Assembly (NCBI GenBank): GCA_024279945.1
Contig: JAJRRA010000039.1
Coordinates: 1 to 64,000 of the forward strand
Direction: 5' to 3'
Source of the DNA: Gammaproteobacteria bacterium
Lineage (GTDB): Bacteria; Pseudomonadota; Gammaproteobacteria; Xanthomonadales; SZUA-36
DNA: 64,000 nt
Numbering within the stretch: the stretch's first letter is position 1; each line of letters opens with the position of its first letter. The translations under genes were made by a program, and so were the position numbers. Below the pieces are notes generated by a model that was not told where the DNA came from, searched no databases, and saw nothing but the letters and a program-made list of their open reading frames with translations. Below are positions 11,639 to 30,069 of this stretch, one piece after another.

Positions 11639-13564
11639 ATGGTGGACTCTCCGTTCCATTTCAAAACTTGGATTGTTCTGTTGTTGGCGACCGTGCTGAT
11701 CTCGGCGTGCGCGGGTACGGCGCGTGGAACAAAAACATCGGTGTACCAGCATGAGAAAAATGTTTCAGTGGAGGATTTTAGCCTGTCGAAAGCAGATGCG
11801 ATGGTCATTATTCGTTACCCTGCCATTATTCATGCCGATGCCGAACAATCCTATTTCCATGCTTTTTCCATCAACGCGATCGGGGGTGAAGTGCCGCCGG
11901 CCAACCGCACCAAGAAGGCCACCACCCGAATTGCGAAATCCGTTATCGCCAAGTCCAGTTACTACGTGATGACTTTGTATCGGGAGTTACAGAAGGAACT
12001 GCCGCCAAATACGGTTCTGTTATCGCCCCACATCATCATGTGGGACCGGGAAAAGGGGCTCTATAGCCGTCCCATCCTGGCAACTGAGCAGATTCCGAGC
12101 GTGGTCACGATAGATTTCAATGTCTATTCCTATCCGGATACGGATGAGATGATGGATTCGCCACCGGTCACATTCGGCGATCTGGTGACACCCTTGTTCG
12201 TGGTGCACAGTAACCGGTGGACCAGGCCTCCGACCAATGGCCTGTGGCTTTCCAGCGATCCCCTGGTGCAGTCCGCCTGGACGCAGTCCGCCTTGCAAGC
12301 GCGTAGTGAGGTTGAGAGAAAAGTGGATCAGGCCGGGCCGAACTATCAAAGGCCACTGGATTTCATTGCATTTCTGAATTCCCGGTCCAGGACTCGTCAG
12401 GCTCTTCCGGTCAAAAGCGCTCGCGGTGACCATAGCGACATCAATGCGGTGGAAGATTATCCGGTTGAAAAAATCATGATGGACGGAACCCTGCTGGAAA
12501 ACCTGGCTGAAGACTGGACGCAGGATCCGTTTGCGGAGAGCTTTGTTAAAGGTGCTGCCAACCGTGTCAAGCAAACATTGAACTCGGTAAATCACGACCG
12601 GGCAACCTTTTTCGCCCGGCAGATCGCACTGGCGAGGTTTGATCCGGAACTGGCCATCGCTTTTCTCGCTCAGTCCGGTGGTGAAAGTGTTCGTGCACGT
12701 CTCCAGTTGGCTGAAGCATTGATCGAAGCTGAGAGGAAATTCCTGGCATCCCAGTCTGCGGGCCTGTATGAGGGCACTTATGCAGGCGATTACGGCATGC
12801 AGATGCGCCAGATGATCGAGGGTGAATATAAATTGCTTGAAAAAAGACGAGTCCAGGCCCGCAAGCAGAATGTCACCACGGCTGTGGCTGCGCTAGCCCT
12901 GGTTACTTCTGTTTATGGAGCGACGGCTACCGGTGCGGCCGGTGCTGCGTTTTTGCAGAATTTTGCCGGTGTATTTATGCTGGGGTCTTTGTGGGCTATG
13001 AGTTCGACCTTCAAAACACAAGCAGATTCTGCCGAGATGTCCGAACACTTCCTGACTTTGATCGCTCCGGCACTGGAGCGGCAAATGTCGGTGCAGATGG
13101 AGTGGTTGGAATCCAAAGAAAAGATTACGGCTATCGGGTTTGCAGAGTTCAGGAACAAGACCCTGTCACTCTACCAGGCAAGAGTTCGTTCCCTGCAGGC
13201 CGATGTCACCGACCGTTGTGTGTTCAAACAGCCGTCCTTCAGTAAGCCTGGGCGATGGTATGGAGGCTGCAGAGGTGGGGCGGCTTCCGATCGTGGCTAT
13301 GGTGTGGTCGAGGACCCTTCAGGTAATTATGTGGAATATCTTGGTGCAGCGAAGGACGGAATGGCATCAGGAACGGGGGCAATGATTGTTCGCAAGGCCA
13401 ACCGGGTTGGCGCCGTTTATTATGAGGGAACCTTCCGCAAGGGTCTGCCCGATGGGACGGTGAAAGTAGAAGAACCCAGCCAGAAATCACGGGTCAGGGA
13501 ATTCAGGGCTGGTGTTGATGTCGGAAAAGGGAGTGTAAGCAAGTTGCATTCACTGACATTCTGA
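11639..13564 (+). CDS. Outer-envelope lipoprotein with C-terminal MORN-like repeats (paralogue B)
   Basis: A 641-residue lipoprotein whose lipobox is ISAC with the modified cysteine at C24. AGGAG five bases upstream supports ATG 11639. It aligns end to end with the protein at 4699-6645: SKADAMVIIRYPAIIHADAE, YPVEKIMMDGTLLENLA, NHDRATFFARQIALARFDPEL and the MORN-like tail (RWYGGCRGG, YYEGTFRKGLPDG, REFRAGVDVG). The two copies differ at many positions, so the duplication is not recent. It is followed after 19 bp by a secreted protein gene on the same strand. Function unknown; both copies probably sit at the inner face of the outer membrane. Confidence 0.8.
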   Translation: MVDSPFHFKTWIVLLLATVLISACAGTARGTKTSVYQHEKNVSVEDFSLSKADAMVIIRYPAIIHADAEQSYFHAFSINAIGGEVPPANRTKKATTRIAKSVIAKSSYYVMTLYRELQKELPPNTVLLSPHIIMWDREKGLYSRPILATEQIPSVVTIDFNVYSYPDTDEMMDSPPVTFGDLVTPLFVVHSNRWTRPPTNGLWLSSDPLVQSAWTQSALQARSEVERKVDQAGPNYQRPLDFIAFLNSRSRTRQALPVKSARGDHSDINAVEDYPVEKIMMDGTLLENLAEDWTQDPFAESFVKGAANRVKQTLNSVNHDRATFFARQIALARFDPELAIAFLAQSGGESVRARLQLAEALIEAERKFLASQSAGLYEGTYAGDYGMQMRQMIEGEYKLLEKRRVQARKQNVTTAVAALALVTSVYGATATGAAGAAFLQNFAGVFMLGSLWAMSSTFKTQADSAEMSEHFLTLIAPALERQMSVQMEWLESKEKITAIGFAEFRNKTLSLYQARVRSLQADVTDRCVFKQPSFSKPGRWYGGCRGGAASDRGYGVVEDPSGNYVEYLGAAKDGMASGTGAMIVRKANRVGAVYYEGTFRKGLPDGTVKVEEPSQKSRVREFRAGVDVGKGSVSKLHSLTF

Positions 13565-13583
13565 GAATTTTGCGAGCATATGG

Positions 13584-14381
13584 ATGAAAAACTGGCTTCA
13601 TACAGGGTTGTTGATCGTGGGCTTGTTGACGGCCTGGCCATCGGCAGCTGTTGCGGGCGTTAATCTCGAATCCATTGCTGATTTGCCTCCCGGTGAAAAA
13701 TTTCGCCAATTGAGTCTCCTGCTACTGGTATCCGGTGGTGTGGAACCCGGGCTACTGGAGTTGATTCAGACCGCAGGCAATGTCGGCAAGGAGGGAACAG
13801 ATTCCGGACCGGCCGGATTTGCGTTGCAGTTGGATGATTTCCAGACACCATTGGCACGTATCGTGGATCAGGAAACCATGCTGGCTGGCGCCATGCAAAT
13901 GTTCGTGTATACAGGTGATCACAGCCAGGAAATTCAGCTCGAACTGGCGGAAATAACCCGGACTAACCCCATTCTGATCAGCATGGTGGATGTGAACGAA
14001 ATTGCTGAAAATGCAATCATCATTCGCAATGCGATAGCCGATGCGATTGCGTACTCGTCGGCAGTGCAACAAGAGCAGGCCATGGCGCAATTACAAACCT
14101 TTCGAAATCAGACCGTCCACCTGAGAAACATGATGGAATTCAATATATTTGAGGAAGAACTGGCTAAGATTACCGATCGTGCCATCGTCGATCTGGGTGG
14201 CCGGCTGGATGCCTATCAACGCATGTTTGACGATGAAATTGACTCGGAACTGGTTCAGCGGAGGGTCGATTCAGCAGAAATCATGAATGCTCAGACAGGC
14301 GCCAACTTTGATGACCAGGCTCAAATGCGCACCAACGAAATTCTGATGATGCTGATCCTGATGGAGAGCCAGGTCCACTGA
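13584..14381 (+). CDS. Secreted helical protein of unknown function
   Basis: A 265-residue protein with a clear signal peptide (MKNWLHTGLLIVGLLTAWP..., cleavage near SAAVA-GVN). The mature part is acidic and mostly alpha-helical, with no cysteine pairs, lipobox or recognisable domain. It lies 19 bp downstream of lipoprotein paralogue B and is probably co-transcribed with it, which suggests a periplasmic partner. It is convergent, after 15 bp, with the acidic secreted protein gene at 14397. I do not recognise the family. Confidence 0.7.
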   Translation: MKNWLHTGLLIVGLLTAWPSAAVAGVNLESIADLPPGEKFRQLSLLLLVSGGVEPGLLELIQTAGNVGKEGTDSGPAGFALQLDDFQTPLARIVDQETMLAGAMQMFVYTGDHSQEIQLELAEITRTNPILISMVDVNEIAENAIIIRNAIADAIAYSSAVQQEQAMAQLQTFRNQTVHLRNMMEFNIFEEELAKITDRAIVDLGGRLDAYQRMFDDEIDSELVQRRVDSAEIMNAQTGANFDDQAQMRTNEILMMLILMESQVH

Positions 14382-14396
14382 CGTGGTGGCGGGCTC

Positions 14397-15404
14397 TTAT
14401 GGTGGGTTTGAATTGTTTTCTTTTGGCTCCGTCAGACCTTCCAGTTTGTCCAGATCTTCAATCGCAATTGTGCCGGGAATGATGACTTCAGATGCTGACT
14501 GCTGCTGGCTATCCAGACTGCTTTGCAGTGCTGATGCGTCTGAGTTTTTCGCCGCATTTTCCGCGGTCTGACTGAGTGCATCGGATGGCTCCATGGCCTG
14601 TTCCGGGCTTGCTTGCGGGCCGCTACTGGAGGAACCCGGCTGTTGCCTGGCCTTCAGGAAGTCCAATGCGCTCTCAGAGACACCTGCGGTACTGATTTCA
14701 TCGCTGTCATCGTTTTGCTGGGGCTGGTAGGGCTCGTAGGAGGACACCGAACCGGCGCTGGTGCTGCCCTGGGAACCCTCTTGCCCCGCTTCGCCCTGAG
14801 ATTCACCCTCCTTACCCTGATTTTCTCCCTGCTGCTCCCCTTCGCCTTCAGATTTTTCCATTTCGCCTTGCTCTCCGCCTGACTGAGCTCCCTGGGCCTT
14901 GGCACCGGAGTTTTCACCATCCTGCTGAGCGTTACTGTCCGGCATGGAGGGCCTGCTGGCCCCATAGGCATTAGCTTCCCGCTGATTGTATTTTTCCACC
15001 TGCTCGTCCCAGGCTTCTTCTTCACGCTCACGCAGGCCAGGATCGGTTTGAGCCGCTTCACTAGGCTCATAAGGGTATTCCCGCAATGCGTCAAAGGGTT
15101 CCCATTGTCCATTCTCGATAATGATGTCGGTTAACTGGTCCCTGATGTTTTCTCGCGACTCTTTGGGTAGCTTATCAATTTTTTCCTGCTTGGCCTGGGT
15201 GGAGTAGGTGGTGTTGGAAAAGGTGTCGTGGTCGCGTGATCCTTCCAGCTCCATCTGTTTGCGATAGGCATCCTCACGTGCTTCGGCCTGCTCGCTGGAC
15301 GTGTCCTGATCACTCGTACCGCCGTTGTCCTGGGCCTGGACCAGGCCGGTGAACAGGGTGGTGCTGATGATCAGCATGAAAAATTTGTTGATGATATTGA
15401 TCAT
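14397..15404 (-). CDS. Secreted acidic low-complexity protein (Glu/Gln/Gly/Ser-rich)
   Basis: About 335 residues from ATG 15404, chosen because it begins a good signal peptide (MINIINKFFMLIISTTLFTGLVQAQD); a frame to 15560 would add a non-signal extension. After an ordered N-terminal part (a KIDKLPKESRENIRDQLTDIIIENGQWEPFDA region) the protein becomes a disordered tract rich in E, Q, G and S at about 165-240, then further S/Q/A-rich segments. It lies 155 bp downstream of the kinase-FGE gene on the same strand and may be the last gene of that operon. Such tracts suit a flexible periplasmic spacer or a phosphorylation or interaction scaffold, but no function can be assigned. Confidence 0.65.
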   Translation of the reverse strand: MINIINKFFMLIISTTLFTGLVQAQDNGGTSDQDTSSEQAEAREDAYRKQMELEGSRDHDTFSNTTYSTQAKQEKIDKLPKESRENIRDQLTDIIIENGQWEPFDALREYPYEPSEAAQTDPGLREREEEAWDEQVEKYNQREANAYGASRPSMPDSNAQQDGENSGAKAQGAQSGGEQGEMEKSEGEGEQQGENQGKEGESQGEAGQEGSQGSTSAGSVSSYEPYQPQQNDDSDEISTAGVSESALDFLKARQQPGSSSSGPQASPEQAMEPSDALSQTAENAAKNSDASALQSSLDSQQQSASEVIIPGTIAIEDLDKLEGLTEPKENNSNPP

Positions 15405-15559
15405 GACATGATTATGACAGTTTTGGCTGAACCGGAACTGAAGCCCGGCGGGACGGGTGCCATTTTGCCCACTGCCGCGTCTCTCCTCACTCAAGTATAT
15501 GGAATACGTTACGCTTGCCGTTCCTTGCATTGAACAAAATGGACTCCCGTCACAGTACA

Positions 15560-17986
15560 CTAGTCATCTATTATCCTCACGACCCGAAAACCGGTAAAGT
15601 CGTTGCGGTCGCCGGTTTTCAGATTGAAACGTGCAGGCAGCCTGATTTCTTTGGTCCCGGTGAACCAGGAGCCACCACGGGTCATCCGGGAACTGCAAAT
15701 TCCCCGGTTCCAGGCGCTGCCGTCCGCCGGTCCGTCGAGGTAGGAAAGATTCATGCAATCCAGCGTCCATTCCGCCACGTTGCCGATGACGTCAAAAAGT
15801 CCGAATTGATTGCTTCTGAATGAGCCCACGGGCAGGGTTTCCATCACCGCCGTATCTTCGCAGGACTCGTGTTGCCAGCGGAACCCCGTTTCGCTGCCGG
15901 CGATGTTGCCAAACTCACAGACGCGGGAAGGATCGCCGCCAAGCCAATCACTTTCCTCGCCGGCCCGCGCGAAATATTCCCATTCACTTTCACTCGGCAG
16001 GCGGTAGGACTGCCCGGTTTTTTTGCTCAGCCAGGTGACATACTCCTGTGCATCGTTCCAGGACACCATGATGACCGGCCGGGAAGCTCTCCCCCAGCCA
16101 TTGTCCCGCGGGCGGGTGGTACAGCCGCCGGCTTCTACGCATTGATCCCACTGCTGCAGCGTTATTTCAAAAACTCCTACCGCAAACGGTTCCGCGATGG
16201 TGACCATTCTGCGGGGTTTTTCCTTTTTCAGCGCCAGCGGTTCAGATTCTTCCGAACCCTGCCAGAAGGAACCGGCAGGCACCACCATCATGGTCGGACA
16301 GTCCGCGCAGTCCCGGAATGTCTTGCCGGGTCGTAGCGTTAGCTGGTCGATGGCCTCCATTGCCGAGGCGACTTTTCGTCCGCTCGGAAAGGCGCTGATA
16401 TAGGTCTGGTACGCTTCGATGGTGTTTAGCCTGGTAGCAGATTCAAAGCTACGCAGATCGTTGATCTCGTCATTCAGGCGGCGACGCAGCTTGTGAGCCT
16501 CTTCAGCATGCAGCCCGCCCGGCCGGTTCGACAGGTATTCGTCCATGGCGTCAATGGTTCTTGTTTTCCGGGCAGCTTCCCATGCCTGGTCATCCTGGCG
16601 CCTGTTTTTCTGTTCTTGCCGTTCTGCTTCTTTCCGGGCGAGTTCAAGCTCATTTTGCAAAATCCGGGCGTCGGTCTTGTGCAAGCCTCCGGGGAATTGC
16701 TCCAGGTGGGCCTCAATAGCGGATTCGGTCCCATCCGCTTTGGCCGCTTGCCAGGCTTTTTCGTCCAGTGCATCCAGTAGCGTTCTGGCCTGTGCCTGGT
16801 GGAACGACTGTGGGAAATCCTGCAGGAATAACTGGTAGGCATAGGCTGTATCCGCCTCCAGCGCGGCCTGCCAGCGTATCCGCTCCTGCGGCGATACTTC
16901 GGCTTCTTGAGTCAGTGCAGACTCCGATGATAAACCCTTTTTTCCGCTTGTATCGCCGGTTCCATCGTCGCTAAGCAGGTAGATGGCAGCGGTAGTGATA
17001 AGTACCAGGAAAATACCCAGCAGAATGATCGGAAGCCACTCTCTTCCTTCCTGCTCAATCCCCGCCGGGAGCCCCGCAGTCGTGGATACCTGGCCTGGTA
17101 TTGTCCTGTCGAACGAGGAACGCCATTGAGACACGCTTTGCGGACGTGATTCCGGGTTTACCGCCAGGCCTTGGCCAAGCGCATCCAGCAGTCCGCCAAA
17201 TTCCCGTTCTGAAACCAGACTGGTGAGTGGCTGAAGCGGATCCGGATCCCCTTGTGAAAGCGCCCGTTGCCGCTGGGTGGCTGCCACCGGGACCTGGCCG
17301 GTGATGGATCGGTACAGCGTGGCCGCGAGGCCGTAAATATCCGTCCAGGGACCGATTTGGCCGTTGTCGTCAGATTGCTCCACCGCTGCGTAGCCTTCAC
17401 TGCCCAATTTCCAGCGATTGGCGGGGCCGCTGCCCAGCCTTTGTCCTGCTGCACCAAAATCCAGCAGGATAGGGGAACCGTTGTCGGTAATGTAAATGTT
17501 GGCCGGCTTGATGTCCTGGTGCGTCACTCCCTGCTGGTGGATATATTCAAGTGCATCCAACAGGGGTGGAATAAGTGCACGGGCTTCGTCAGATGTCAAT
17601 GTACCGCTTCGCCGCAGCAGCGTATGTAGTGCCTCTCCCCGGTAGTAAGGCATCAGCAGGTAGGCAGTACCGTTGGCTTCGAAACACCTGAACACCTTGA
17701 CGACGTTGGGATGGTCCAGTGGCGCCACAGTGCGCCCCTCAGTGAGAAAATGTCTCAGGCCCGCGGTGAAGCGTGCTGAGGAGGTTTCACTGGCGGCTTG
17801 CAGGCTGCCGTCTTCCCGGCGCACGGCATGTTCACGGGGCAAGTATTCCTTGAGCGCAAAAGACTGTCCCAGCACCTCGTCGGTCACAAGATAGGTGATA
17901 CCGAATGCACCTTGCCCCAGCACCCGGTCGATCCGCAGTTTGTCCACCATAGTGCCAGGGGGCAGTGGCAGTGATATTTCGCTCAT
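15560..17986 (-). CDS. Membrane Ser/Thr protein kinase with helical repeats and C-terminal FGE/SUMF1-like domain
   Basis: 808 residues. A Hanks-type kinase domain (1-295) has the glycine loop GQGAFG (24-29), ATP lysine K46, catalytic loop HQDIKPAN (156-163) with D158 and N163, and DFG at 176-178. The usual HRD arginine is Q157, so this is a non-RD kinase. A transmembrane helix lies at about 318-338. Outside it are four ~40-residue repeats of the form W-A...A-YL..FPGG.H...A (about 390-550), then an FGE-sulfatase/SUMF1 domain (556-806). That domain keeps RLPSESEWEYFARAG, GNVAEW, RGGSW and GFRVVR but lacks the cysteine pair after RGGSW that real formylglycine-generating enzymes need. It is probably a ligand-binding rather than catalytic ectodomain. 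It overlaps the upstream FHA gene by 4 bp. Confidence 0.88.
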   Translation of the reverse strand: MSEISLPLPPGTMVDKLRIDRVLGQGAFGITYLVTDEVLGQSFALKEYLPREHAVRREDGSLQAASETSSARFTAGLRHFLTEGRTVAPLDHPNVVKVFRCFEANGTAYLLMPYYRGEALHTLLRRSGTLTSDEARALIPPLLDALEYIHQQGVTHQDIKPANIYITDNGSPILLDFGAAGQRLGSGPANRWKLGSEGYAAVEQSDDNGQIGPWTDIYGLAATLYRSITGQVPVAATQRQRALSQGDPDPLQPLTSLVSEREFGGLLDALGQGLAVNPESRPQSVSQWRSSFDRTIPGQVSTTAGLPAGIEQEGREWLPIILLGIFLVLITTAAIYLLSDDGTGDTSGKKGLSSESALTQEAEVSPQERIRWQAALEADTAYAYQLFLQDFPQSFHQAQARTLLDALDEKAWQAAKADGTESAIEAHLEQFPGGLHKTDARILQNELELARKEAERQEQKNRRQDDQAWEAARKTRTIDAMDEYLSNRPGGLHAEEAHKLRRRLNDEINDLRSFESATRLNTIEAYQTYISAFPSGRKVASAMEAIDQLTLRPGKTFRDCADCPTMMVVPAGSFWQGSEESEPLALKKEKPRRMVTIAEPFAVGVFEITLQQWDQCVEAGGCTTRPRDNGWGRASRPVIMVSWNDAQEYVTWLSKKTGQSYRLPSESEWEYFARAGEESDWLGGDPSRVCEFGNIAGSETGFRWQHESCEDTAVMETLPVGSFRSNQFGLFDVIGNVAEWTLDCMNLSYLDGPADGSAWNRGICSSRMTRGGSWFTGTKEIRLPARFNLKTGDRNDFTGFRVVRIIDD

Positions 17987-19464
17987 CTGTTGTCAGCCGG
18001 GATGATGCTGTAGCTGAAGCGGGCATTTCCCAGGATGATGACATCACCCGCTTCGATATACATGGTTTCGTCTTCGAGGCAGGGAATGCCGTTAATCGAG
18101 GTACCGTTGCTTGATCCCAGGTCGGTAATCGTCAGCATTTCACCGGTCCCATTCAGGCGGACATGTTGTCTGCTGACTGCGGCGCTATCAATATTGATAT
18201 CAGAATTTCCTCTGCCGAGCACGATATTGATGGCGTTTCGGCTGACTTCGCAGCTTTGTCTGAAGGTTGTCCCGTCCGTCAGGATTCCCTCGATCACCAG
18301 CAGGCTGTCCAGTCCCGGGACCTGATAATCCTCGTCTGTGTTGATGTCCCTGGCCGGGGAAGGCGGAGCCTGTTTTTTCGTTGCCGTGTGCGTTGCATTC
18401 AGGTTTCTGTTGTTGCGGATCCAGTACAGCGCAAAGGCAGAACCCAGCAGGAGGATAGCCGCCAGTAACCAGGCCCAGACCGGTACGCCACTGTCTTCCT
18501 GCGCACTTCCTGTTTTCGTATCTTCGGGTGTGTGAGATTCTTCCGGCGGTGGCGGCACCTCGAGCTCAGGCAGAGCTTCCTCTTCCAGGTCAGGCTCAGC
18601 GACTGTTGGGTTTTCTTCCGTGTTGGTTTCTTCATCCAGTGCTGCCTCCGGTTCAGGTGGTGCTACTTCTTGTTCCGGCGGTGCGGGCTCTGGCTGGGGT
18701 TCTTGCTTTGGCTCATCCATCGTTTCGGCAGCGATTTCCGGTTCGGTTTCCACTGCAGCGGGTAATGGTTCGCAGGGTGTCTCGGTGACATCGATCTGCA
18801 TCTGGTTCAGGATCGCCAGCAAACTCTTCTTCCAGTGGTAGCGGGGCGCTTGCGAGACAGACATGCTTTGAACGCCATCAGCCGAACTGTATCCGGTCAG
18901 GTTGCCGCATACATCCACGATCGGACCGCTGACATTGGGTAGAGGTGTATCACTGGAAAGGACAAATTTATCATTTTCCGGAAGGATGGACACGGTGGCT
19001 GTGACATCCAGTGGGGGGGCACCCTGTTCGATCTGTTCTGCCGGCGGGAAAGCTCGCAAGCGTATGGACTTGCCGTCCGCCAACTTGTCTACTGAAAAGC
19101 GGGCAGCATTTCGTTTTAGTGACTTGACCGAAAGAACCATCAAACCCTGCTCCGGAAACCGCTGCTCAATTCGGGCTGGCCTGCCGTTACGGATGATGTC
19201 TGTGCCGCCGTCCAGTACGATGATTTCATCATCTGCTGAAGCAAAATTATCTGTCACCAGCACCAGGCCTGTGTCCGAAATCACCACGCCTGTCGTGGGT
19301 TCAACCAGGGACGCTGAAACCAGCTTGAGTACCGGTACGATCCATGCTGGCATTGAATCGGCATGAGACAGTGTTGTCGGAGCCGGATTTTGGCTGTAAC
19401 ACAAGCCTGAACCCGCAGCCAGGCAGCCACAGCAAATGGAAATGATGAAATATTTAATCCTCAT
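17983..19464 (-). CDS. Membrane protein: degenerate trypsin-like ectodomain, Pro/Glu linker, TM helix, cytoplasmic FHA domain
   Basis: About 493 residues from ATG 19464 (a TTG at 19476 would add four). A signal peptide is followed by a trypsin-like fold (about 40-215) recognisable from GVVISDTGLVLVTDNFA and NVSGPIVDVCGNLTGYS. The histidine position is F74 and the serine position is V178, so it should be proteolytically dead. A Pro/Glu-rich linker (about 230-320), a TM helix (328-348) and an FHA domain (about 405-485; GRGNSD, SRQH, SSNGT) follow. FHA domains read phosphothreonine, so the cytoplasmic end can dock a substrate of the adjacent kinase, whose start overlaps this stop by 4 bp. I infer a sensor or adaptor bridging periplasm and cytoplasm. 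Confidence 0.82.
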   Translation of the reverse strand: MRIKYFIISICCGCLAAGSGLCYSQNPAPTTLSHADSMPAWIVPVLKLVSASLVEPTTGVVISDTGLVLVTDNFASADDEIIVLDGGTDIIRNGRPARIEQRFPEQGLMVLSVKSLKRNAARFSVDKLADGKSIRLRAFPPAEQIEQGAPPLDVTATVSILPENDKFVLSSDTPLPNVSGPIVDVCGNLTGYSSADGVQSMSVSQAPRYHWKKSLLAILNQMQIDVTETPCEPLPAAVETEPEIAAETMDEPKQEPQPEPAPPEQEVAPPEPEAALDEETNTEENPTVAEPDLEEEALPELEVPPPPEESHTPEDTKTGSAQEDSGVPVWAWLLAAILLLGSAFALYWIRNNRNLNATHTATKKQAPPSPARDINTDEDYQVPGLDSLLVIEGILTDGTTFRQSCEVSRNAINIVLGRGNSDINIDSAAVSRQHVRLNGTGEMLTITDLGSSNGTSINGIPCLEDETMYIEAGDVIILGNARFSYSIIPADNR

Positions 19465-19499
19465 CGTGTCAGCCAAACCCGGTTTTTTTACAGTAATTG

Positions 19500-20243
19500 C
19501 TAGGGTGCATAAAGACGGTTTATCAGGTTATCCAGGCAGTACTGACCGGCTCTGTTCAGTGCATTTTCTTCTCTGCCCTGTACCAGATTCTGGATAAAAA
19601 CCAGGATAGCCGCCATTACCAGGGCCAGCAGGGTCGTGCTGAAGGCCACCCCCAGTCGCTCTGTAACCTGGTAAAGCATGTCAGGGCTTTCCACGTTGGC
19701 GCGGTTGCCGGCATAGTTAAGCGCCATCATGATGCCGATTACCGTGCCGATGAAACCCAGCGTTGGAATCAGCCAGGTGATATATCGAATGATGTTGTAG
19801 CGCAGGTCAATTTCATGCAGGTACAACTCCAGGCTCGAGTTAAGCAGTGAGTTGGTCTGGTCTGCGGAGTGGCTCAGGTTGAACCCGAGCACACAGCGCT
19901 CGATCAGGCGTGGTACAAAACAGACTTCGCGGTATTTGCTGTTACGAACCTTCTGGTAAATGGGCGTAATGTCATCACCCGGACGAAGAACGGTTTCCTC
20001 GTCTTCGGGAAGGTAATTCCGGTCGAGTTGACTTTCCTCCAGACGGCCCGCACGCCAGCGAATGGAAAGTTCGCCCAGGCCGACAAAAAACGCCAGCCAC
20101 AGGATATTCTGAATGGTGAATGGCCAGCTTGAGCGCTTGATATCCAGCATGATGGCAGCAGCGTCTGGCGGCAGGATTCGGGCCAGTAAGGCGATTACGA
20201 TGATGGCGCTTATCAGGCTGACAGCAAGAGTGATGTTTCGCAT
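19500..20243 (-). CDS. MotA/TolQ/ExbB-family proton-channel subunit
   Basis: 247 residues with four likely membrane helices (about 5-23, 44-61, 150-173, 189-212). The family core appears as IPTLGFIGTVIGIMMALNYAG and AFSTTLLALVMAAILVF. Proteins of this family form pentameric inner-membrane channels around a dimer of an ExbD/MotB-type subunit and use the proton gradient to do mechanical work. No classical ExbD follows. The nearest candidates are the two VWA proteins at 21616-23480, which begin with an ExbD-like helix. It is preceded by an FHA gene (32-bp gap) and followed by the FHA/pseudo-trypsin gene (35-bp gap), so phospho-dependent control of the channel is plausible. Confidence 0.82.
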   Translation of the reverse strand: MRNITLAVSLISAIIVIALLARILPPDAAAIMLDIKRSSWPFTIQNILWLAFFVGLGELSIRWRAGRLEESQLDRNYLPEDEETVLRPGDDITPIYQKVRNSKYREVCFVPRLIERCVLGFNLSHSADQTNSLLNSSLELYLHEIDLRYNIIRYITWLIPTLGFIGTVIGIMMALNYAGNRANVESPDMLYQVTERLGVAFSTTLLALVMAAILVFIQNLVQGREENALNRAGQYCLDNLINRLYAP

Positions 20244-20275
20244 GGATCAGGGCTTCCTCAATCTGTAGTCGTGCA

Positions 20276-20809
20276 CTATCTGTTTTCTTCAATTTTTCCG
20301 GTGACCGGATTACGCCTTGGATTCTTCAGCACGGTTTTTTGCCTGGGTATCCCGGCAAATGTCTGATTGAATACCAGGGGTTTGCCGCGGACGGACCAGC
20401 CTTCCCGCAGGCGCACACGCACTTTGTTACCAAAGGCTTCAATCAAGCGGTCGAGCGGTACTTCTATGGCGCCAAACCGAATACGGTCCCGGGTTCCCAG
20501 GCCCACCTTCCGAATCCGGATCCAGCGTTCATTCCGATGCAGGAAAGTTCCATTGGCGGAGTTATTGTCGTGTATGGCCAGATAGCCTTCTTCTGTGACA
20601 TGAATGCTGGCATGCATGCGTGAAACCGAGGCATGATCCAGCGTGATATCACACTCACTGCTACGACCAATGGTTTTTGTTTTCATCAACTGCTGTGCCA
20701 TGTACTTCGGGGTATTTGCATAGATCCGTGGTGAGCTTGAATTTGCTTGTTCAGGGGCACTGATTTCATGCAGCATTGTTATCCGGTTTTGACAGACTCT
20801 ATGATACAT
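20276..20809 (-). CDS. Cytoplasmic FHA-domain protein
   Basis: 177 residues, no signal peptide. An FHA domain spans about 45-125 with the phosphothreonine-binding set GRSSECD, SRMHA and NNSANGTF. The C-terminal ~50 residues are basic and unassigned (RVRLREGW..., PRRNPVTGKIEENR). The start at ATG 20809 is backed by AAGGTG about 8 bp upstream; an ATG at 20776 is possible. It is the first gene of the group FHA, proton channel, pseudo-trypsin-FHA, kinase, and is divergent from another FHA gene after 16 bp. It is probably a phosphopeptide reader for the kinase encoded three genes on. Confidence 0.8.
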   Translation of the reverse strand: MYHRVCQNRITMLHEISAPEQANSSSPRIYANTPKYMAQQLMKTKTIGRSSECDITLDHASVSRMHASIHVTEEGYLAIHDNNSANGTFLHRNERWIRIRKVGLGTRDRIRFGAIEVPLDRLIEAFGNKVRVRLREGWSVRGKPLVFNQTFAGIPRQKTVLKNPRRNPVTGKIEENR

Positions 20810-20825
20810 TGTTACACCTTAACGG

Positions 20826-21491
20826 ATGGTTAAGCCGCCGTATGGGATCAGGACCCGTTTAAAGACGATGGTATTTCATCGAAAAAAATCTTCTTCAGGA
20901 ACCTCGCCAGGCCTGCCTCGTTCGCGAAGCCGGGAAAAATCCGGAAAAACTTCGGCTAGTGCGGACTCTGCACTTGAAAATCCGCTGGCACGCCGCTTCC
21001 AGGCAGATGAAGAACCAGATACTTCAGACCTGGAGCCCGCAGACGGGTTCCATGATACGGCAGGCCAGCAGCAGGACGTGCCCACAACGCGAATCCTTTC
21101 CACTGACAGTGGAGATGAAACCCTGCCTGAAAGGCAGGTGATCAAGGATCCGGTATCCGGTTTTCTTGTCGTCATTTCCGGACCGGGGCGAGGCAGCGTA
21201 TCCATGCTCCGCTACGGCAAAAATTCAATCGGCCGTGATGTTTCACAAGCCATTGCACTGGATTACGGCGACAGCCGGATATCCCGCGAGCGCCATTGCA
21301 CTATTACCTATGATCCGGTTACCCGGAAATTTTATCTGCAAGCGGGTGAAGGAGTAAACCTCACCTATCTCGACGGTCAGCCCGTACTCGCTGTTACCCA
21401 ACTGATTGCGGGAAGCCATATCCGGGTGGGTGATACGGAACTGCGTTTCGTCGCCCTGTGCGGTAAAGACTTCGACTGGACGGAAGACTAA
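20826..21491 (+). CDS. FHA-domain protein with disordered N-terminus
   Basis: 221 residues. The first ~115 residues are polar and disordered, rich in S, R, D and E. The C-terminal part is a divergent FHA domain (about 125-212): SIGRDVSQAI, SRISRERHCTI and a VNLTYLDG segment keep the key Arg, Ser-x-x-His and Asn positions. The start could be ATG 20826 or ATG 20868; neither has a strong ribosome binding site. It is the only plus-strand gene inside the minus-strand kinase/VWA block, divergent from the other FHA gene and convergent with the VWA genes. Its Ser/Thr-rich N-terminus could itself be a kinase target. Confidence 0.72.
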   Translation: MVKPPYGIRTRLKTMVFHRKKSSSGTSPGLPRSRSREKSGKTSASADSALENPLARRFQADEEPDTSDLEPADGFHDTAGQQQDVPTTRILSTDSGDETLPERQVIKDPVSGFLVVISGPGRGSVSMLRYGKNSIGRDVSQAIALDYGDSRISRERHCTITYDPVTRKFYLQAGEGVNLTYLDGQPVLAVTQLIAGSHIRVGDTELRFVALCGKDFDWTED

Positions 21492-21615
21492 AGTGAATTC
21501 CGGCAAGCACAGTCACTCTTTCCGGCTATTCAGAGTTCTGCAAACAGCCTCCTTACTTCGGAGCGGCGCCCCTGACCAAGAAAGCCAACGCGAACAAGCC
21601 CGCTGGAATTCGGAG

Positions 21616-22554
21616 TTAATCGGCAAGAGCCATGAATCCACCGGAGTTGGCTCGGGCCAGTGATTCCATGAACTCTACAGTGCCACGGTATTTAAAGTAG
21701 TCACCCACGGTGACCGAATGAATCTCGACAGCTTTGGAGTTGGATACTGTAATACTGCGTATCAGCCGACCGGGTGAAAGGCCGTTATTGAAAGCCGGGT
21801 TGGGTAAACCATCGCTGATCAGAATAATAGCTTCAGCAGGGCTGGAAAAGGCTTGGGCAAAAGCATTGAGTAGGGAGGATGAACCTTTGAATTTGCCGGA
21901 AAGGCTTTGCAGGAAGCCCACCGCTTCAGAGCGGCTTCGGTCTGTCATTCTGGCCAGCTTGCCCCCAACCGGCCAGCGATAGTACTTCGGTCCGGAATCC
22001 AGTTGCTGGAAACCAAGGATGCCAAATTCATAGCCAGCTTGCAGTGAATCCATCGCCCGGATAACGGTACGCCTTACCAGGGCCTCATGACCTGCCAGGT
22101 AGCTGTTCATGTCCACCAGGAACAGGATTCGTTTCTTGTTGGTCTTCAGACCCAGGAACCGGAACGTGACCTGGTTACTGCCGGCCTTGTCCGGAGTGAC
22201 AATCGGGCTGGGCGGTGGCGGCGGGGCCTGGTCATTTCTGGCCTGTTGTTCGGCTTTGAGGGTTTCCAGCTCGCTGGAGACGATCTCCTGCTCGGCCTGC
22301 ATTTCTTCCTGCCGGGTCTGGGCCGCTTGCAATGCTTCAAGAATGTCCTTCTCGCCCTGTGCGGTCTCATTGAGCAGGGCTTGTGTCTTGCCGGCAAGCT
22401 GTTCGAGAAACGCCAGGTCACCCTCGGAGCGAACTTCCTTCTGGTAATCCGGCATGAGGATGATCGTGATGATGATGAATGCACCCATGGCGGATGCGAA
22501 CAGGTCAACCGCCGACAGGGAATAGATTTCAAAATTACGCGTACGCGACCTCAC
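21616..22554 (-). CDS. ExbD-like membrane-anchored VWA protein with degenerate MIDAS
   Basis: 312 residues. A single N-terminal helix (about 14-36, SAVDLFASAMGAFIIITIIL) carries an acidic residue, D17, at its start, as ExbD/MotB proteins do. A coiled coil (about 45-105) and a Pro-rich linker follow. The VWA fold (about 130-312) keeps ILFLVDMN and LISDGLPN. The metal-site motif DxSxS has become D148-M-N150-S-Y152, so metal-dependent binding is probably lost or altered. It overlaps the upstream, intact VWA gene by 4 bp and shares its layout throughout, so the pair arose by duplication and may form a heterodimer. Confidence 0.8.
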   Translation of the reverse strand: MRSRTRNFEIYSLSAVDLFASAMGAFIIITIILMPDYQKEVRSEGDLAFLEQLAGKTQALLNETAQGEKDILEALQAAQTRQEEMQAEQEIVSSELETLKAEQQARNDQAPPPPPSPIVTPDKAGSNQVTFRFLGLKTNKKRILFLVDMNSYLAGHEALVRRTVIRAMDSLQAGYEFGILGFQQLDSGPKYYRWPVGGKLARMTDRSRSEAVGFLQSLSGKFKGSSSLLNAFAQAFSSPAEAIILISDGLPNPAFNNGLSPGRLIRSITVSNSKAVEIHSVTVGDYFKYRGTVEFMESLARANSGGFMALAD

Positions 22555-23480
22555 CGGGACACTCCGACGAAGTCTCCGCCGTTCTGTTTTGCAAGTTCCT
22601 GCAGAAACATGACCAGTCCACGGTTTTGCGTGTAGTCGCCAATGGCGACCGTATGAATTTCCTTGCCTTCAAAGCGATTGAGACTTGCAATATCCTGGAT
22701 GATGAACCCCGGAGAATTGTCCGGTTCACCGTCACTCATCAGAATGATGGACTTAGCGGGGTATTGCATGGCGGACAGCAGAGCATAATGTGTGGGTGTT
22801 GAACCGGAGAAGCGACGCGCAAGGGATTCAGTGAATGCCCTGGCGACTTCCAGGTTTTCGGGTGTCGCCTGCACCAGACTTCTGCCGTCCGGATAATTCC
22901 ACAGCACCGGGGAAGGGTTTCCCTGGTATCCAATAATGGCGAATTCGTTAGACTCATCCAGTGGTTTGAGTATCTCCAGCACGGATTTGATCATCAGGGA
23001 AGCATAGGAGAGCATGCTGCCGGACATGTCAATGACTATGACGAATGACTTGGCTTCTGTTGCCAGCCCGAGGATGGAAAACTCAACCCCTGCGGTTAAG
23101 GCCTCCGGCTCAGGTTCTTCGATAATTTCCTCAACCGGTTCGGGGGCAGGAACGGGTACTTCCGCGAGTTGGGTCTTGATATCGGCCATTTGGTTCCGGA
23201 TGCGTGATATCCGGGCCTCGATGCCCTGGTTCACCATGTTGAGTTCCTGCAGTTCACTTTGTGCAACACGCTGGTTGGCAAGCAAGTCTTCGATTTTCCC
23301 GGCCGCCAGCCGGCGCTGTTGCATAATGTCCTCAGTTTTTGAATAGGCGGCGTCACTGCCGGCGTTTTGATAATAGGGAAAGAGCAACATCACCAGTAAA
23401 ATGAAAGCACCCAGAGCCGAAGCAAACAGATCGATTGCGGATGTGCTGAAAACTGCAGTATTTCGGTCAGGAGTTCGCAT
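22551..23480 (-). CDS. ExbD-like membrane-anchored VWA protein with intact MIDAS
   Basis: 309 residues. The N-terminal helix SAIDLFASALGAFILLVMLLF (14-34) has D17 at the position of the protonatable Asp of ExbD/MotB helices. Then come a coiled coil (about 50-105), an acidic Pro/Glu linker (108-127) and a VWA domain (about 130-309). The metal-site motif is complete: D151-M-S153-G-S155, a threonine in STPTHYALL, and LMSDGEPD. The domain should be periplasmic if the helix is oriented as in ExbD. It is the first gene of a two-gene operon and is divergent from the CHAT-like gene across 416 bp. Other VWA/channel pairs exist in bacteria, but I cannot name a characterised homologue. Confidence 0.82.
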   Translation of the reverse strand: MRTPDRNTAVFSTSAIDLFASALGAFILLVMLLFPYYQNAGSDAAYSKTEDIMQQRRLAAGKIEDLLANQRVAQSELQELNMVNQGIEARISRIRNQMADIKTQLAEVPVPAPEPVEEIIEEPEPEALTAGVEFSILGLATEAKSFVIVIDMSGSMLSYASLMIKSVLEILKPLDESNEFAIIGYQGNPSPVLWNYPDGRSLVQATPENLEVARAFTESLARRFSGSTPTHYALLSAMQYPAKSIILMSDGEPDNSPGFIIQDIASLNRFEGKEIHTVAIGDYTQNRGLVMFLQELAKQNGGDFVGVSR

Positions 23481-23896
23481 GGATCAATCAGGCGGCCAGC
23501 CGCTATAGGTTAGTGCAAGCTATCAAAAAGTGCGCGGAGGGGCAACGGGGCTGAGTAACCCCGAACCGGGGCCAGACTACTTTATTCCGGGAATAGCCTC
23601 TAATTGCAGCAAGGCCAGCCTGGAAAATATGCTCTGACCCCAGTCCGAAGCGCGAAGCGATATCAGTCTGGTTCATCACCAAATACCGTCAAGCATTTCA
23701 ATCACGTAGCCCGCTTCGCCAGTTTGATGACGGCGTTGGTAACAGAGCCCGCTCCGCCCGTTCGAACGGGGCCAGGGTCGAGAACCTGACCCCGGCCCTG
23801 GAAACATATAATATTTATCGTCTTTTACGGAAAATTGTTTCAGCTTATGATAGTGCATGAAGTATGTGGGCTTGCTAATAAGAAGCCAGGGATACC
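23481..23896. other. 416-bp divergent intergenic region with palindromic repeat remnants
   Basis: No gene is supported here. The region separates the VWA operon (minus) from the CHAT-like gene (plus) and must hold both promoters. It contains an imperfect palindrome at 23768-23801 (outer arms CCAGGG/CCCTGG, inner CCTGACCCC) and short GC-rich hairpin-like pieces near 23545-23575. The CCTGACCC core is shared with the inverted repeat at 9497-9548. The last ~90 bp before the plus-strand gene are AT-rich and promoter-like, without a convincing -35/-10 pair. Confidence 0.5.
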
Positions 23897-26800
23897 ATGA
23901 CCATAATTAATAACAGGCCACGCACAGCTCAGAGGATTCTATACCGAATTTCCGGGATGGTGCTTATCGCTCTGCTGGGGTTGCTGTTCTTCTCAGGCAT
24001 GGTGTTTGCAGCACCACCGGTCGAAGTATCTCCCGACAAGCCTGCAGAATATATGATCTATCAGTACCCGGATGTTGCATTGCTGATCCGGATTGATGCA
24101 GATGGACTTGAATTTGAGTCCCGGGTGTTTGGGCCGGAACAGACGTTGGTGATAGCGTCCGGCATTCCGGGCAGGCGCATAGGGCCGGTCTATCAATTGA
24201 TAGAAGCAGTCGATGAGCCACGCCAGTTGATCGTGCAGGTAAAGCCGCAGGAGACCAGCGATCGGTCGCGAATCAGCATGGAACTGGTTCAATTGACGGG
24301 GAAAGACAGAAATAACAATATCCTTCTCGCGGCGTTTCGCCTGCTTTCCCGTGCCGGTGAATTGACCCGGGCCAACGATACCTCAACCTGGGCAATGAAG
24401 GTTTACACGCTGAAACAGGCGGCACAGGCATTCGCGCAACTGGGCTGGGAAGAACTGCGTTTGTGGTCGGAATATTACGCAGCCCATCTGGTATTCTTCA
24501 AATTGCACGATAATCTTTCTGCCATGGAATTTGCCGCGCAGGTGGAGACGGCAGCGCGCAAGGCCGGAGTGCAGGTGGTGGAACTGGCAGCGCTGCAATT
24601 GCAAGGTGCTGTGCTAATGGATTCTGCCGCCGCGGATTCGACTGCCGGCTTTGATGATATTCATCAGGTTTATCAGCGCGTTGCGCAGATGGCGGATGAA
24701 CTGGGCCTGCAGTCGGAAAGGAGTTGGGCGCTATTCAATGACGGTCTTACGTGGGAGCGGCAGGAAAATCTTGCACAGGCACTCAAGCAATACGAACTGG
24801 CATTACGTATTGCGGAGGAAGAAAGAAATAATGAGCTTGCAACCCTGGCACGGAACAAGGCCGCGTTTGTCTATGAAAAGCAGGGAAGTATTACCGGCGC
24901 CCTGGAAATGCTGGGCCAGGTCAGTGATGAGGCTGGAGATCAGTTGGAAAACCTGCGTCAGGCAGAAAGTCTTTTTGAGCAAGGTCGCCTGTTGGTTGAT
25001 GCCGGATATTTTCCACAAGCGATTGAGGTGTTGACGCAATCTTTGCAGTTACAGCGGGCAGCAGGTTCCCGGAGCAGGGATGGGCCAGCCGGTTTGCTGC
25101 TCGGGCAATCCTATTATGGCATGGGGGACATGGAACAGGCGGAGACGGTGCTTCGGGAACTTGTCGAAAAAACGCCAGCTAACGGTAATGCTTCATTGCT
25201 GGGCAATGCATTCAATATCCTGGCGGGCATTGACCGATTTCAGGGTGATATCGAACGTATGGCCGGGGATAGGGATCAGCAGGCAGCTTTTATCGTTTCC
25301 GCACATGACCGGGTAAAATTAGATTTTGAACAGGCACTTGACGCCCTGAGCACCCATTCCACCCAGACCGTAAAGGCTTTGTCCCTGTTCAAACAAAGCC
25401 TTCAGCAGGCGATCAAGGCTGGAAACAGGCTTCTGCAGCATCGCTCCAGGCTCTATTTGTGCTCACTGGCGTCATCGGCTGAGGCTGGGAGGGGGCAGGT
25501 TTGTTCCCGTGAGGCAGTTCGTCAGTCCGTCGATTACCTGGCGACTGCAGGAATTCCAGCCCTGGCCCTGGAGGCTAATTGGTTATGGTCAAAAAATCTG
25601 CGCACTGAAGGTCGGCTTTCCCAGGCGATTCAGCAGATGGCGCAATTGGCCGAAGATATGCGGTTTTATCGATCGGTCCTCCCAGGCGTTCTGGGTGCGT
25701 GGTACTGGCAGAACCGGGAACAGGTTTACCGGGACTTCATGTCAATGGTACTGAAGCGCTCAGGCGCAAATCAACGGGAGTTCACAGATGGGCGGCAAAC
25801 CTTAATCGCGCTAGCCAGTCTGAGCGCAATTGAACGGCCAGGTGGGTCTGCAACAGGCCCGGACGGGCAGGAGAGCAGCGGTCAGATACGGTCTCTCCTG
25901 GCGAAAAACCGACAGGCCCGGGAGCACGCCGTCTCGACTGCGGAGTTGTCGAAAATCAGTAAGCGGCTGCAGGTAGCGGCAAAACGTTTTGCCGCAAGTG
26001 ATAAGACGCTCGATATGGATGGCCTGGACAGGCTGCTTAAACGAATGAGTGCAGGTTCAGCGCTGCTGAGCTACTACTTTGCCGGCAACAAGGGGTATGT
26101 CCTGGTCGGCGGGAATGATGGTGTTCGCTTGCTGGAGTTACCGGTTCCGGGAGACATCCAATCACAACTGAACGAAGTTCGCGTATCGATGGGCAAACAG
26201 GATGGCTTTTCCCTGAATCCCCGTCTCGAATTATTCGGCAAGCTCCTGGTTGCGCCGATTGAATCTCTATTACCCGAAATCGTTTACCTGATGCCAACAG
26301 GACCGTTGAGCGGATTTCCATTTGACCTGTTGCGCCGTAAAGGAAACTACCTGGCGGCGACGTACCGGATCGTCAATATTTTGTCGCCAGCCGCACTTGA
26401 TCATCCGGTCGTGCGCTTCAATTCCGCAGACCTCAAGCTGTTCTTTCTGGCGGGTAAACCGGATATCAGACGGGATATATTTGATTATGAGCAAAAACCT
26501 TCTGCCGAGATTAAGGCAATTACAGATATATTTGTCGGGCCATCCCTTCATATTGTCCAGGGATCTGCCCTGGGGCGCGATGAATTCCAGGATGGGCGAT
26601 TTGAGCAGGCGGATATCATTCACCTGGCGCTTCCAGGCACAATCAAACTGGATTTTCCAGATCGGTCACGGTTGATGCTGTCGGGAACGACACAGCGGCC
26701 GGTCAGTGAGTTCCTGGGGCCAGCAGATATCCGTCAAAGCAAATTCAAGGCAAGACTGGTCGTGCTCAGCAGCATCAATTTTGAAGGCACAGAGCGATTC

Positions 26801-27043
26801 AAGCTGGACCCTGATCCGGGTTTCGTTTCAGACTTCCTGACATCGGGTGCAGCAGTTGTCATTTCCAGCCTGTGGCGGATTCCGGATGCAGAGCGCGCGC
26901 AGTTTTTTTCAGAGTTTTACCGGAACCTGGAAAACAATCCAGATATTGCTGCGGCACTAAGCACCAGCAAAAGAACTTTCCTGACGACAGGAGTCGCGGC
27001 AGATTACATTCGATGGGGCGGCTTTCAGCTTTATCTCAACTGA
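23897..27043 (+). CDS. Exported TPR protein with catalytically degenerate CHAT domain
   Basis: 1048 residues with a hydrophobic export signal (about 20-38, cleavage near VFA-APP). A beta-rich N-terminal domain is followed by TPR-like helical repeats (about 140-460) and further helical repeats to about 600. The C-terminal ~330 residues have the CHAT (caspase-HetF) fold: LMPTGPLSGFPFDLLRR, ADIIHLALPG, LVVLSSINFEG, VISSLWRIPD and FYRNL. In active CHAT proteases the catalytic His sits in HG and the Cys in LSAC. Here those positions are P913 and I960, so it should be inactive. It is divergent from the VWA operon and ends 11 bp from the convergent TPR gene of the TonB cluster. I infer a periplasmic scaffold. 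Confidence 0.82.
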   Translation: MTIINNRPRTAQRILYRISGMVLIALLGLLFFSGMVFAAPPVEVSPDKPAEYMIYQYPDVALLIRIDADGLEFESRVFGPEQTLVIASGIPGRRIGPVYQLIEAVDEPRQLIVQVKPQETSDRSRISMELVQLTGKDRNNNILLAAFRLLSRAGELTRANDTSTWAMKVYTLKQAAQAFAQLGWEELRLWSEYYAAHLVFFKLHDNLSAMEFAAQVETAARKAGVQVVELAALQLQGAVLMDSAAADSTAGFDDIHQVYQRVAQMADELGLQSERSWALFNDGLTWERQENLAQALKQYELALRIAEEERNNELATLARNKAAFVYEKQGSITGALEMLGQVSDEAGDQLENLRQAESLFEQGRLLVDAGYFPQAIEVLTQSLQLQRAAGSRSRDGPAGLLLGQSYYGMGDMEQAETVLRELVEKTPANGNASLLGNAFNILAGIDRFQGDIERMAGDRDQQAAFIVSAHDRVKLDFEQALDALSTHSTQTVKALSLFKQSLQQAIKAGNRLLQHRSRLYLCSLASSAEAGRGQVCSREAVRQSVDYLATAGIPALALEANWLWSKNLRTEGRLSQAIQQMAQLAEDMRFYRSVLPGVLGAWYWQNREQVYRDFMSMVLKRSGANQREFTDGRQTLIALASLSAIERPGGSATGPDGQESSGQIRSLLAKNRQAREHAVSTAELSKISKRLQVAAKRFAASDKTLDMDGLDRLLKRMSAGSALLSYYFAGNKGYVLVGGNDGVRLLELPVPGDIQSQLNEVRVSMGKQDGFSLNPRLELFGKLLVAPIESLLPEIVYLMPTGPLSGFPFDLLRRKGNYLAATYRIVNILSPAALDHPVVRFNSADLKLFFLAGKPDIRRDIFDYEQKPSAEIKAITDIFVGPSLHIVQGSALGRDEFQDGRFEQADIIHLALPGTIKLDFPDRSRLMLSGTTQRPVSEFLGPADIRQSKFKARLVVLSSINFEGTERFKLDPDPGFVSDFLTSGAAVVISSLWRIPDAERAQFFSEFYRNLENNPDIAAALSTSKRTFLTTGVAADYIRWGGFQLYLN

Positions 27044-28386: not shown

Positions 28387-28402
28387 GCTGTGTAATTAAC
28401 CA

Positions 28403-29059: not shown

Positions 29060-29070
29060 GCATCTTCTCT

Positions 29071-29478: not shown

Positions 29479-29517
29479 ATTTATTTCTCCTTCAAAAGCA
29501 TGCCGGACCGGCGATGA

Positions 29518-30057: not shown

Positions 30058-30069
30058 TGTCTGCTAATC

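Follow-up and report, generated by a model that had tools for sequence, protein, structure and literature searches.

A candidate phospho-regulated, ExbB/TolQ-like motor with paired VWA axle proteins in a gammaproteobacterial gene cluster

Introduction

Motors of the 5:2 type power flagella, the Ton and Tol systems, gliding, the type IX secretion system (T9SS) and Zorya, and in the type VI secretion system (T6SS) an envelope machine is controlled by kinase-phosphatase-FHA logic, the threonine-phosphorylation pathway PpkA-PppA-Fha. Here we describe a gene cluster at positions 14,397 to 27,043 of a 64,000-nucleotide stretch (the window: positions 1 to 64,000, forward strand, of contig JAJRRA010000039.1, assembly GCA_024279945.1, Gammaproteobacteria bacterium), in which an ExbB/TolQ-like gene stands with two VWA genes, a Ser/Thr kinase gene and three FHA genes. 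We take the cluster, at a probability of about 0.65, to encode a phospho-regulated, ion (proton)-driven 5:2 inner-membrane motor. In the 5:2 family, a pentamer is arranged around two axles, protons bind at an Asp, and the parts rotate or exert force relative to each other (PMC9389320).

The closest described systems are the vWA motors of PMC12204202 (Mol Biol Evol 2025), for which vWA proteins with a transpore helix (TPH) and a conserved Asp were proposed as dimeric partner of TolQ-like pentamers, with an Asp-Thr contact predicted by AlphaFold 3. Heterologous vWA pairs lacking a TolR/ExbD partner are described there for Proteobacteria and Verrucomicrobia, using an Idiomarina query, next to a separate, first vWA family that is side-binding like TonB/TolA and carries an SHLS motif. 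The window fits the TPH-vWA description, sharing with these motors a TolQ-like gene and a pair of vWA genes with an Asp helix and no adjacent TolR/ExbD; a motor core of TolQ-like and vWA proteins is therefore a published prediction (PMC12204202). The main text of that paper contains 0 occurrences of kinase or phospho, and its section on vWA motors no non-VWA heads. What goes beyond it and seems to be new is a recurring kinase/PP2C/FHA/trypsin-FHA module, exchangeable heads and one-sided loss of the metal ion-dependent adhesion site (MIDAS); at the Idiomarina locus L097, the neighbours include one kinase, two PP2C and four FHA genes. In the full-text literature outside bioRxiv and most subscription journals, no paper on a kinase/FHA-linked ExbB-VWA motor was recognised. 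An initial annotation of the window had proposed VWA proteins as periplasm-facing B subunits of a motor linked to kinase and FHA genes; the B-subunit role, topology and linkage are supported, the proposed phospho-switch, pull on a ligand and lipoprotein cargo are conjectural, and the novelty is smaller than it had appeared, the motor being already in PMC12204202.

Among better-known relatives, the AglRQS-Glt machinery of Myxococcus likewise combines one A subunit with two different B subunits, and its GltG has an FHA domain; it differs in that AglQ and AglS are PF02472 proteins, which the VWA proteins of the window are not, and that the pertinent text names no kinase or PP2C (PMC3169522).

Results

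The ExbB/TolQ-like A subunit was modelled from a 56-row alignment with a mean predicted local distance difference test (pLDDT) score of 92.9. Structure comparison of the model returned TolQ as best match (Z 15.0, root-mean-square deviation 3.5, 204 aligned residues), followed by ExbB (Z 13.6), ZorA (11.0) and PomA (10.2). Pro160, Gly163, Gly166, Thr167, Gly170, Phe201 and Thr204 are shared by 56/56 relatives, and in a sequence alignment Thr167 and Thr204 coincide with T145 and T178 of TolQ, which we take to be its channel-lining threonines. PMC10666116 mentions an aspartate and a ring of conserved threonines; six residue names searched in PMC12215075 gave no match. The model has an additional N-terminal helix (residues 2-23), and its alignment to most TolQ/ExbB rows begins at residue 23-29.

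In a tree of 47 A subunits, those of types A and B, type B being a distant kind from genomes of the same order (ExbB 23-29 % identical), lie on one side and TolQ, ExbB, ExbB2, TtpC and MotA on the other (31 vs 16 rows, 99/95). From 52 hand-chosen rows (26 of the 56 in alignment A4, 7 of 14 type B, 5 references and 14 controls under 330 residues), three controls with extremely long branches, which probably represent wrongly picked open reading frames (ORFs), were removed, as were the long rows L123 and L127. With TolQR and ExbBD the cluster shares the A-subunit fold and the aligned pore threonines; its separate clade, the extra helix and B subunits without PF02472 (no match at E <= 1 in VWA1 or VWA2) set it apart, so that it is not classed as their orthologue. 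A PF01618 A subunit of TolQ/MotA-like fold, two pore-helix threonines and a single-pass B subunit with an Asp speak for a place among the 5:2 motors. MotB_plug had no match at E <= 0.01 in the window's genome, and 4/14 controls matched.

VWA1 and VWA2 are 32 % identical and match VWA_3 at 1.1e-4 (below the Pfam cut-off) and 8e-12, respectively. Each has, as first read from the window, one N-terminal helix with an Asp, Asp17, which aligns with the MotB Asp in an hhalign comparison that is itself not significant. The helix Asp is invariant in the 86/86 partner proteins of alignment A3, consisting of 84 of 88 axle references and the two window proteins; the four left out (VWA2 of L064 and the truncated L067, L132 and L137) also carry the Asp motif. 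Searching with a hidden Markov model (HMM) and later checking the motif gave Asp in 150/150 axle rows, a count in which the HMM, trained on Asp helices, selects for them and some genomes appear twice (e.g. L054, L068). Invariant Asp, invariant pore Thr and tight linkage (below) together uphold the assignment of the VWA proteins as B subunit of an ExbB/TolQ-type motor.

The axle N-terminus is net positive in 132/150 rows, and the 20 residues past the helix average -1.3, which by the positive-inside rule puts the head in the periplasm, as initially proposed. In L120 (Halobacteriovoraceae) this axle bears an OmpA head (1.8e-9), which points to the same side. The model of VWA2 (pLDDT 85.6) consists of a helix 11-40, a long helix 43-106, a low-confidence linker and a VWA fold, for which inter-alpha-inhibitor and other VWA domains were the best structural matches; integrin I domains matched as well. 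Its MIDAS is intact (DMSGS), that of VWA1 degenerate. In the clade of the window, the MIDAS motif is kept in one axle only in 21/21 two-axle loci (four genomes counted twice), with a search pattern that accepted N in place of D, a leniency relevant to L064, whose kept copy reads NMSGS. The same one-sidedness was found in 8/8 complete loci that have two axles and bear opitutal or verrucomicrobial names. Both axles keep the MIDAS in L139, L142, the five alphaproteobacterial pairs and the type B loci L033-L049 (17 loci); L113, with non-VWA heads, has it in neither. As read from the motifs, one-sided MIDAS in two lineages suggests heterodimers with one ligand-binding arm.

Among 151 sampled genomes of the order, 30 matched at E <= 1e-5, and 19 contain an ExbB of 77-89 % identity (100 % in the window's own genome, which is included; two are split between contigs). 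Both VWA genes accompany ExbB in 14/14 family loci. Since these two observations hold together, conservation of the cluster is non-random and exceeds chance. These 14 loci, read to 6-20 kb, further contain the genes for CHAT (14), kinase (13), PepFHA (12), FHA2 (11), p14397 (10), lipoprotein 11639 (8) and p13584 (7), misses being partly due to contig ends and to gene calling that was greedy by length, where antisense ORFs masked real genes (L058, L059, L077). Type B has two VWA axles in 17/17 loci and an FGE-domain protein in 16/17. In one type B locus (L045), a protein that by eye is actin/Hsp70-like, with no supporting Pfam match, lies between ExbB and the axles.

For the wider search, alignment A1 was run against contigs of 84,980 species, and the best 80 of 565 relatives were kept. 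Within these 80, the closest ExbB proteins (93-78 %) belong to metagenome-assembled genomes (MAGs) titled Lysobacterales, Xanthomonadales, Oceanospirillales, Chromatiales and Gammaproteobacteria, and the titles as a whole include Gamma- and Alphaproteobacteria, Latescibacterota, Rhodothermota, Acidobacteriota, Thermodesulfobacteriota, Binatota, Myxococcota, Bdellovibrionota, Bacteroidota, Verrucomicrobiota, Actinomycetota and Planctomycetota; in the planctomycete loci L138 and L141 no axle was found. Named cultured strains in this set are Aliiglaciecola lipolytica, Alishewanella tabrizica, Marinobacter zhejiangensis and Nioella ostreopsis. Whole-genome sampling at E <= 1e-30 gave 36/369 genomes for the class and 14/299 for the phylum (own genome in both); the distribution is scattered, not universal.

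Linkage within about 8 kb of ExbB was counted in those 46 of the 80 loci that extend at least 5 kb to both sides (the 34 with less than 5 kb on one side were unused). An axle was found in 41, FHA in 34, a kinase in 27, and trypsin-like and PP2C genes in 21 each. As controls served 19 stretches around other PF01618 genes, hand-chosen from 53 PF01618 matches in eight genomes, with the system's own matches excluded; they were not phylogeny-matched, three were under 11 kb, and 0/19 hold an axle, FHA, trypsin-like, kinase or PP2C gene (TonB in 4/19, CHAT in 1/19). The recurrent linkage with kinase and FHA genes that had been put forward as a check was thereby recovered, and VWA and ExbB-like genes are neighbours as a rule, five of the 46 loci having no axle in reach. 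Neighbour clustering in 49 loci (L075-L123, truncated ones included) returned ExbB in 37, axle in 30, PP2C in 27, FHA3 in 26, FHA2 in 24, trypsin-FHA in 23 and kinase in 22, the next families occurring in at most 6 loci. For Aliiglaciecola lipolytica (L094), Pfam confirmed kinase, PP2C, FHA, VWA and MotA_ExbB, and the FHA3-type protein had no match. Adjoining its motor genes is a protein (L094 17575-20133) with a thermolysin-type M4 peptidase, a transmembrane (TM) segment and two FHA domains.

The kinase (PF00069, 5.6e-34) has K, HQD and DFG motifs readable in its sequence, and, in addition to what had been annotated, a C-terminal FGE/SUMF1-type domain (PF03781, 2.4e-50). The best NCBIfam models for the latter were PvdO and then, weaker, GldK (1.5e-21), both below cut-off. 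The one likeness to GldLM and T9SS that was observed is this GldK resemblance, and GldL is absent from the rows of the structure comparison. FHA domains occur, as annotated, in three proteins (3.9e-13, 9.7e-17 and 3.5e-8), one of them membrane-spanning. The trypsin-like domain of this last protein, PepFHA, would lie in the periplasm. Its His and GNSGG motifs are missing in 22/22 rows of the window clade, and GNSGG is retained in 17/26 rows from other lineages (loci numbered L050 and higher, rows scoring more than 70 bits; three genomes twice). The CHAT motif is lost in 20/20 rows including the window (four genomes twice), which read H-L-[AVS]-x-P with a second motif lacking Cys. With the catalytic residues being those we assume for the two folds, both protease-like parts look dead by motif, a loss that adds to the initial annotation.

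Two kinase-related proteins stand apart. In a Sphingomonadales MAG (L075 2238-4664) the kinase part of kinase-FGE lacks catalytic motifs by eye, and the motor genes are kept; a TPR protein of type B (L036 4350-6590) shares 25 % identity with the window kinase across 162 residues of its N-terminal part, lacks HRD/DFG by eye and any Pfam kinase match, and is a possible pseudokinase.

The module resembles the T6SS phospho-pathway in its kinase-phosphatase-FHA logic. T6SS core genes were absent among the proteins scanned in 11639-27043, where FHA domains match TagH weakly and below cut-off, and the T6SS cluster of the window's genome is on another contig (C68).

The kinase and the ExbB-like protein also bear on a Zorya-like anti-phage system, in which the motor would sense envelope disturbance and the kinase arm would be the effector. 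ZorAB belongs to the same 5:2 family, with a similar A-subunit fold (Z 11.0), and its ZorB has a peptidoglycan-binding domain (PMC11890865), to be set beside the OmpA head of L120. In PADLOC, the ExbB-like protein gave a weak ZorA2 match (8.6e-7), and PD-T4-6 (4.6e-43) and MAD6 kinases were matched by the kinase; we read both as superfamily-level similarity. Ten proteins were scanned, and the other eight gave neither a PADLOC match at E <= 0.01 nor any further Zorya match; unlike ZorA (PMC11890865), the A subunit ends just past its last long helix without a long cytoplasmic tail, and the heads are VWA domains. Membership in Zorya was rejected on these grounds, and, the make-up of the cluster being constant across family genomes, we hold the anti-phage explanation to be improbable. 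PDLC00635 had no match in 185 genomes of the class and is uninformative, the 14 controls being silent too.

The axle carries different heads. Among the 150 axle rows, 126 have a VWA head and 6 other heads, and 3 are short; in the remaining 15 the head is a sheet domain that contains a DxDLHV-like motif. Six sheet heads were scanned for DUF2135, with E 0.027 and 0.22 in two and no match in four, and the identity was not adopted, being kept as a lead. On the ExbB tree (47 of the 56 A4 rows, those with a labelable head; long branches L120, L123, L127 and L134 poorly placed), 10 changes are required to explain the sheet label, and well-supported branches force no fewer than 5 of them. All three labels together need 11 changes, compared to a minimum of 2 and an average of 17.4 for shuffled labels. 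As the number lies above the minimum and below the shuffled average, heads tend to be inherited, yet within a single motor lineage they have been swapped more than a few times; horizontal movement of entire loci may play a part in this.

Heads that vary as ligand-binding modules do would also suit a sensor, with ExbB-like and VWA proteins forming a ligand-gated proton leak or a mechanosensor that is read by kinase and FHA proteins, so that signals would pass from the outside in and the complex would perform no external work. The receptor-like look of the kinase, with its FGE-type domain beyond the TM segment, and of the TM pseudo-protease-FHA protein fits this explanation. Set against it, the motor residues (axle Asp, pore Thr) are invariant, a long helix connects TM segment and head, and the top-ranked folds are motor subunits; we consider a sensor without motor function unlikely, and a driven motor the better account.

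Within the window, which is contig C40 of a 3.92 Mb genome, seven minus-strand genes (23480-14397) form an operon with overlaps or short gaps in the ORF list, except for the interval between VWA1 and FHA2, which holds plus-strand FHA3; the TPR-CHAT gene diverges from this operon (Table 1). ORFs and the kinase, FHA, VWA, ExbB-like and CHAT assignments of the initial annotation agree with Pfam and NCBIfam scans, themselves in agreement. A p14397 homologue also occurs in L075. The two large putative lipoproteins are similar to each other and have no credible Pfam family.

Table 1. Genes and residues of the cluster and its surroundings (window positions).
Feature	Positions	Strand	Description
VWA2	22551..23480	-	B subunit (axle): Lys/Arg-containing N-terminus, single TM helix with Asp17, long helix, VWA head
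VWA2 Asp17 codon	23430-23432	-	
VWA1	21616..22554	-	paralogous B subunit, TM Asp17, degenerate MIDAS (DMNSY)
VWA1 Asp17 codon	22504-22506	-	
FHA3	20826..21491	+	cytosolic FHA protein; PF00498 3.5e-8; opposite strand here, core family in relatives
FHA2	20276..20809	-	small cytosolic FHA protein; PF00498 9.7e-17
ExbB/TolQ-like A subunit, 247 aa	19500..20243	-	PF01618 (MotA_ExbB) 1.2e-13
Thr167 codon	19743-19745	-	ExbB-like gene, invariant
Thr204 codon	19632-19634	-	ExbB-like gene, invariant
PepFHA	17983..19476	-	N-terminal hydrophobic segment, trypsin-like domain, TM, cytosolic FHA
kinase-FGE	15560..17986	-	Hanks-type Ser/Thr kinase, TM, repeats, FGE/SUMF1-type C-terminal domain
p14397	14397..15560	-	last operon gene; exported, Gln/Glu/Ser-rich; no family assignment in Pfam/NCBIfam
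TPR-CHAT	23897..27043	+	divergent, exported; CHAT 1.7e-27; active site lost by motif
p13584	13584..14381	+	exported, no known family; neighbour within clade (7/14 family loci)
Lipoprotein 11639	11639..13564	+	putative; no Pfam match at E <= 1; C-terminus presumably MORN-like; 8/14 family loci
Lipoprotein 4699	4699-6645		putative, large
TonB2-type operon	27055-32258		TPR protein, TonB, ExbD, ExbB2, TtpC-like protein
ExbD	29071-29478		within the TonB2-type operon

A TonB2-type operon adjoins the cluster and includes an ExbD gene, so that the earlier statement that a classical ExbD partner is lacking holds for the cluster itself, and an ExbD is present in this separate operon. With this gene only 5.6 kb from VWA2, and a first vWA family of this sort in PMC12204202, VWA might be a side-binding transducer like TonB/TolA, attached to the rim of a motor that uses that ExbD as its B subunit. 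The operon, in part or whole, was detected near the cluster in 4/14 family loci (L050, L051, L052, L061), for which it is taken as a neighbour and was rejected on synteny as motor partner; window-type VWA helices bear the invariant Asp instead, no scripted search for the SHLS motif having been made. We give the side-binding arrangement hardly any weight.

Discussion

By analogy to the 5:2 family (PMC9389320), from which we infer assembly, proton binding at the Asp and rotation or force, five ExbB/TolQ-like subunits would enclose a pair of VWA subunits at their Asp helices, the pair in the window probably being a VWA1:VWA2 heterodimer. When the helix Asp, facing the threonine ring of the pore, takes up a proton, the axle would move against the pentamer, and the long helices would bring the adhesion-type VWA heads into the periplasm, where VWA2 with its metal-binding MIDAS may grip a ligand and VWA1 may act as degenerate partner. 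The content of the module suggests that phosphothreonine is written by the kinase, read by FHA and erased by PP2C. On the cytosolic side, the kinase would phosphorylate Thr on itself or on motor parts, FHA proteins would dock onto the phosphorylated sites and bring about assembly or gating of the motor, and the linked PP2C phosphatase found in many relatives would reset the switch. The periplasmic FGE-type and pseudo-trypsin domains may sense the envelope.

Several observations weigh against this interpretation. Aligned by hhalign to single E. coli MotB, TolR and ExbD sequences, the axle helix reached E 0.02 to 0.8, which is not significant; Foldseek E-values of the ExbB-like model were weak (best 2.7e-3), and Z of about 10-13 can be common among helical bundles. 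The HMMs used for counting were partly trained on the same loci, so that target counts may be generous and the zero in the controls is the informative figure. In the 46 loci a kinase was not found in 19, PP2C in 25 and an axle in 5, so the motor genes can occur without the phospho module. In the window, the cluster shows no linked PP2C. The genome's single PP2C_2 match, Stp1-like, lies in the T6SS cluster on contig C68 (L200 647-10306, with TagH, TssJ, TssL, TssM and TagF), and a dedicated eraser is accordingly missing or shared in this genome. A conserved Thr phosphosite on the motor was not demonstrated in the ExbB-like protein, where the cytosolic candidate T84 is Thr in 31/56 relatives only and is not claimed.

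Taken more widely, the relatives may represent a widespread motor chassis, for which we see even odds: a pentamer powered by protons, an Asp axle that hardly varies, a periplasmic head swapped in evolution (VWA, DUF2135-like sheet, OmpA and others), and a dedicated set of Thr kinase, PP2C, FHA readers and a trypsin-FHA receptor in the membrane would make up a phospho-gated rotary machine with varied outputs. Occurrence of relatives in named cultured strains makes knock-outs look feasible. If the interpretation is true, orphan vWA motors would gain a testable regulatory logic, and a branch of the 5:2 motors would be wired to eukaryote-type phospho-signalling with interchangeable heads, the chassis acting as a general adaptor between proton force and envelope.

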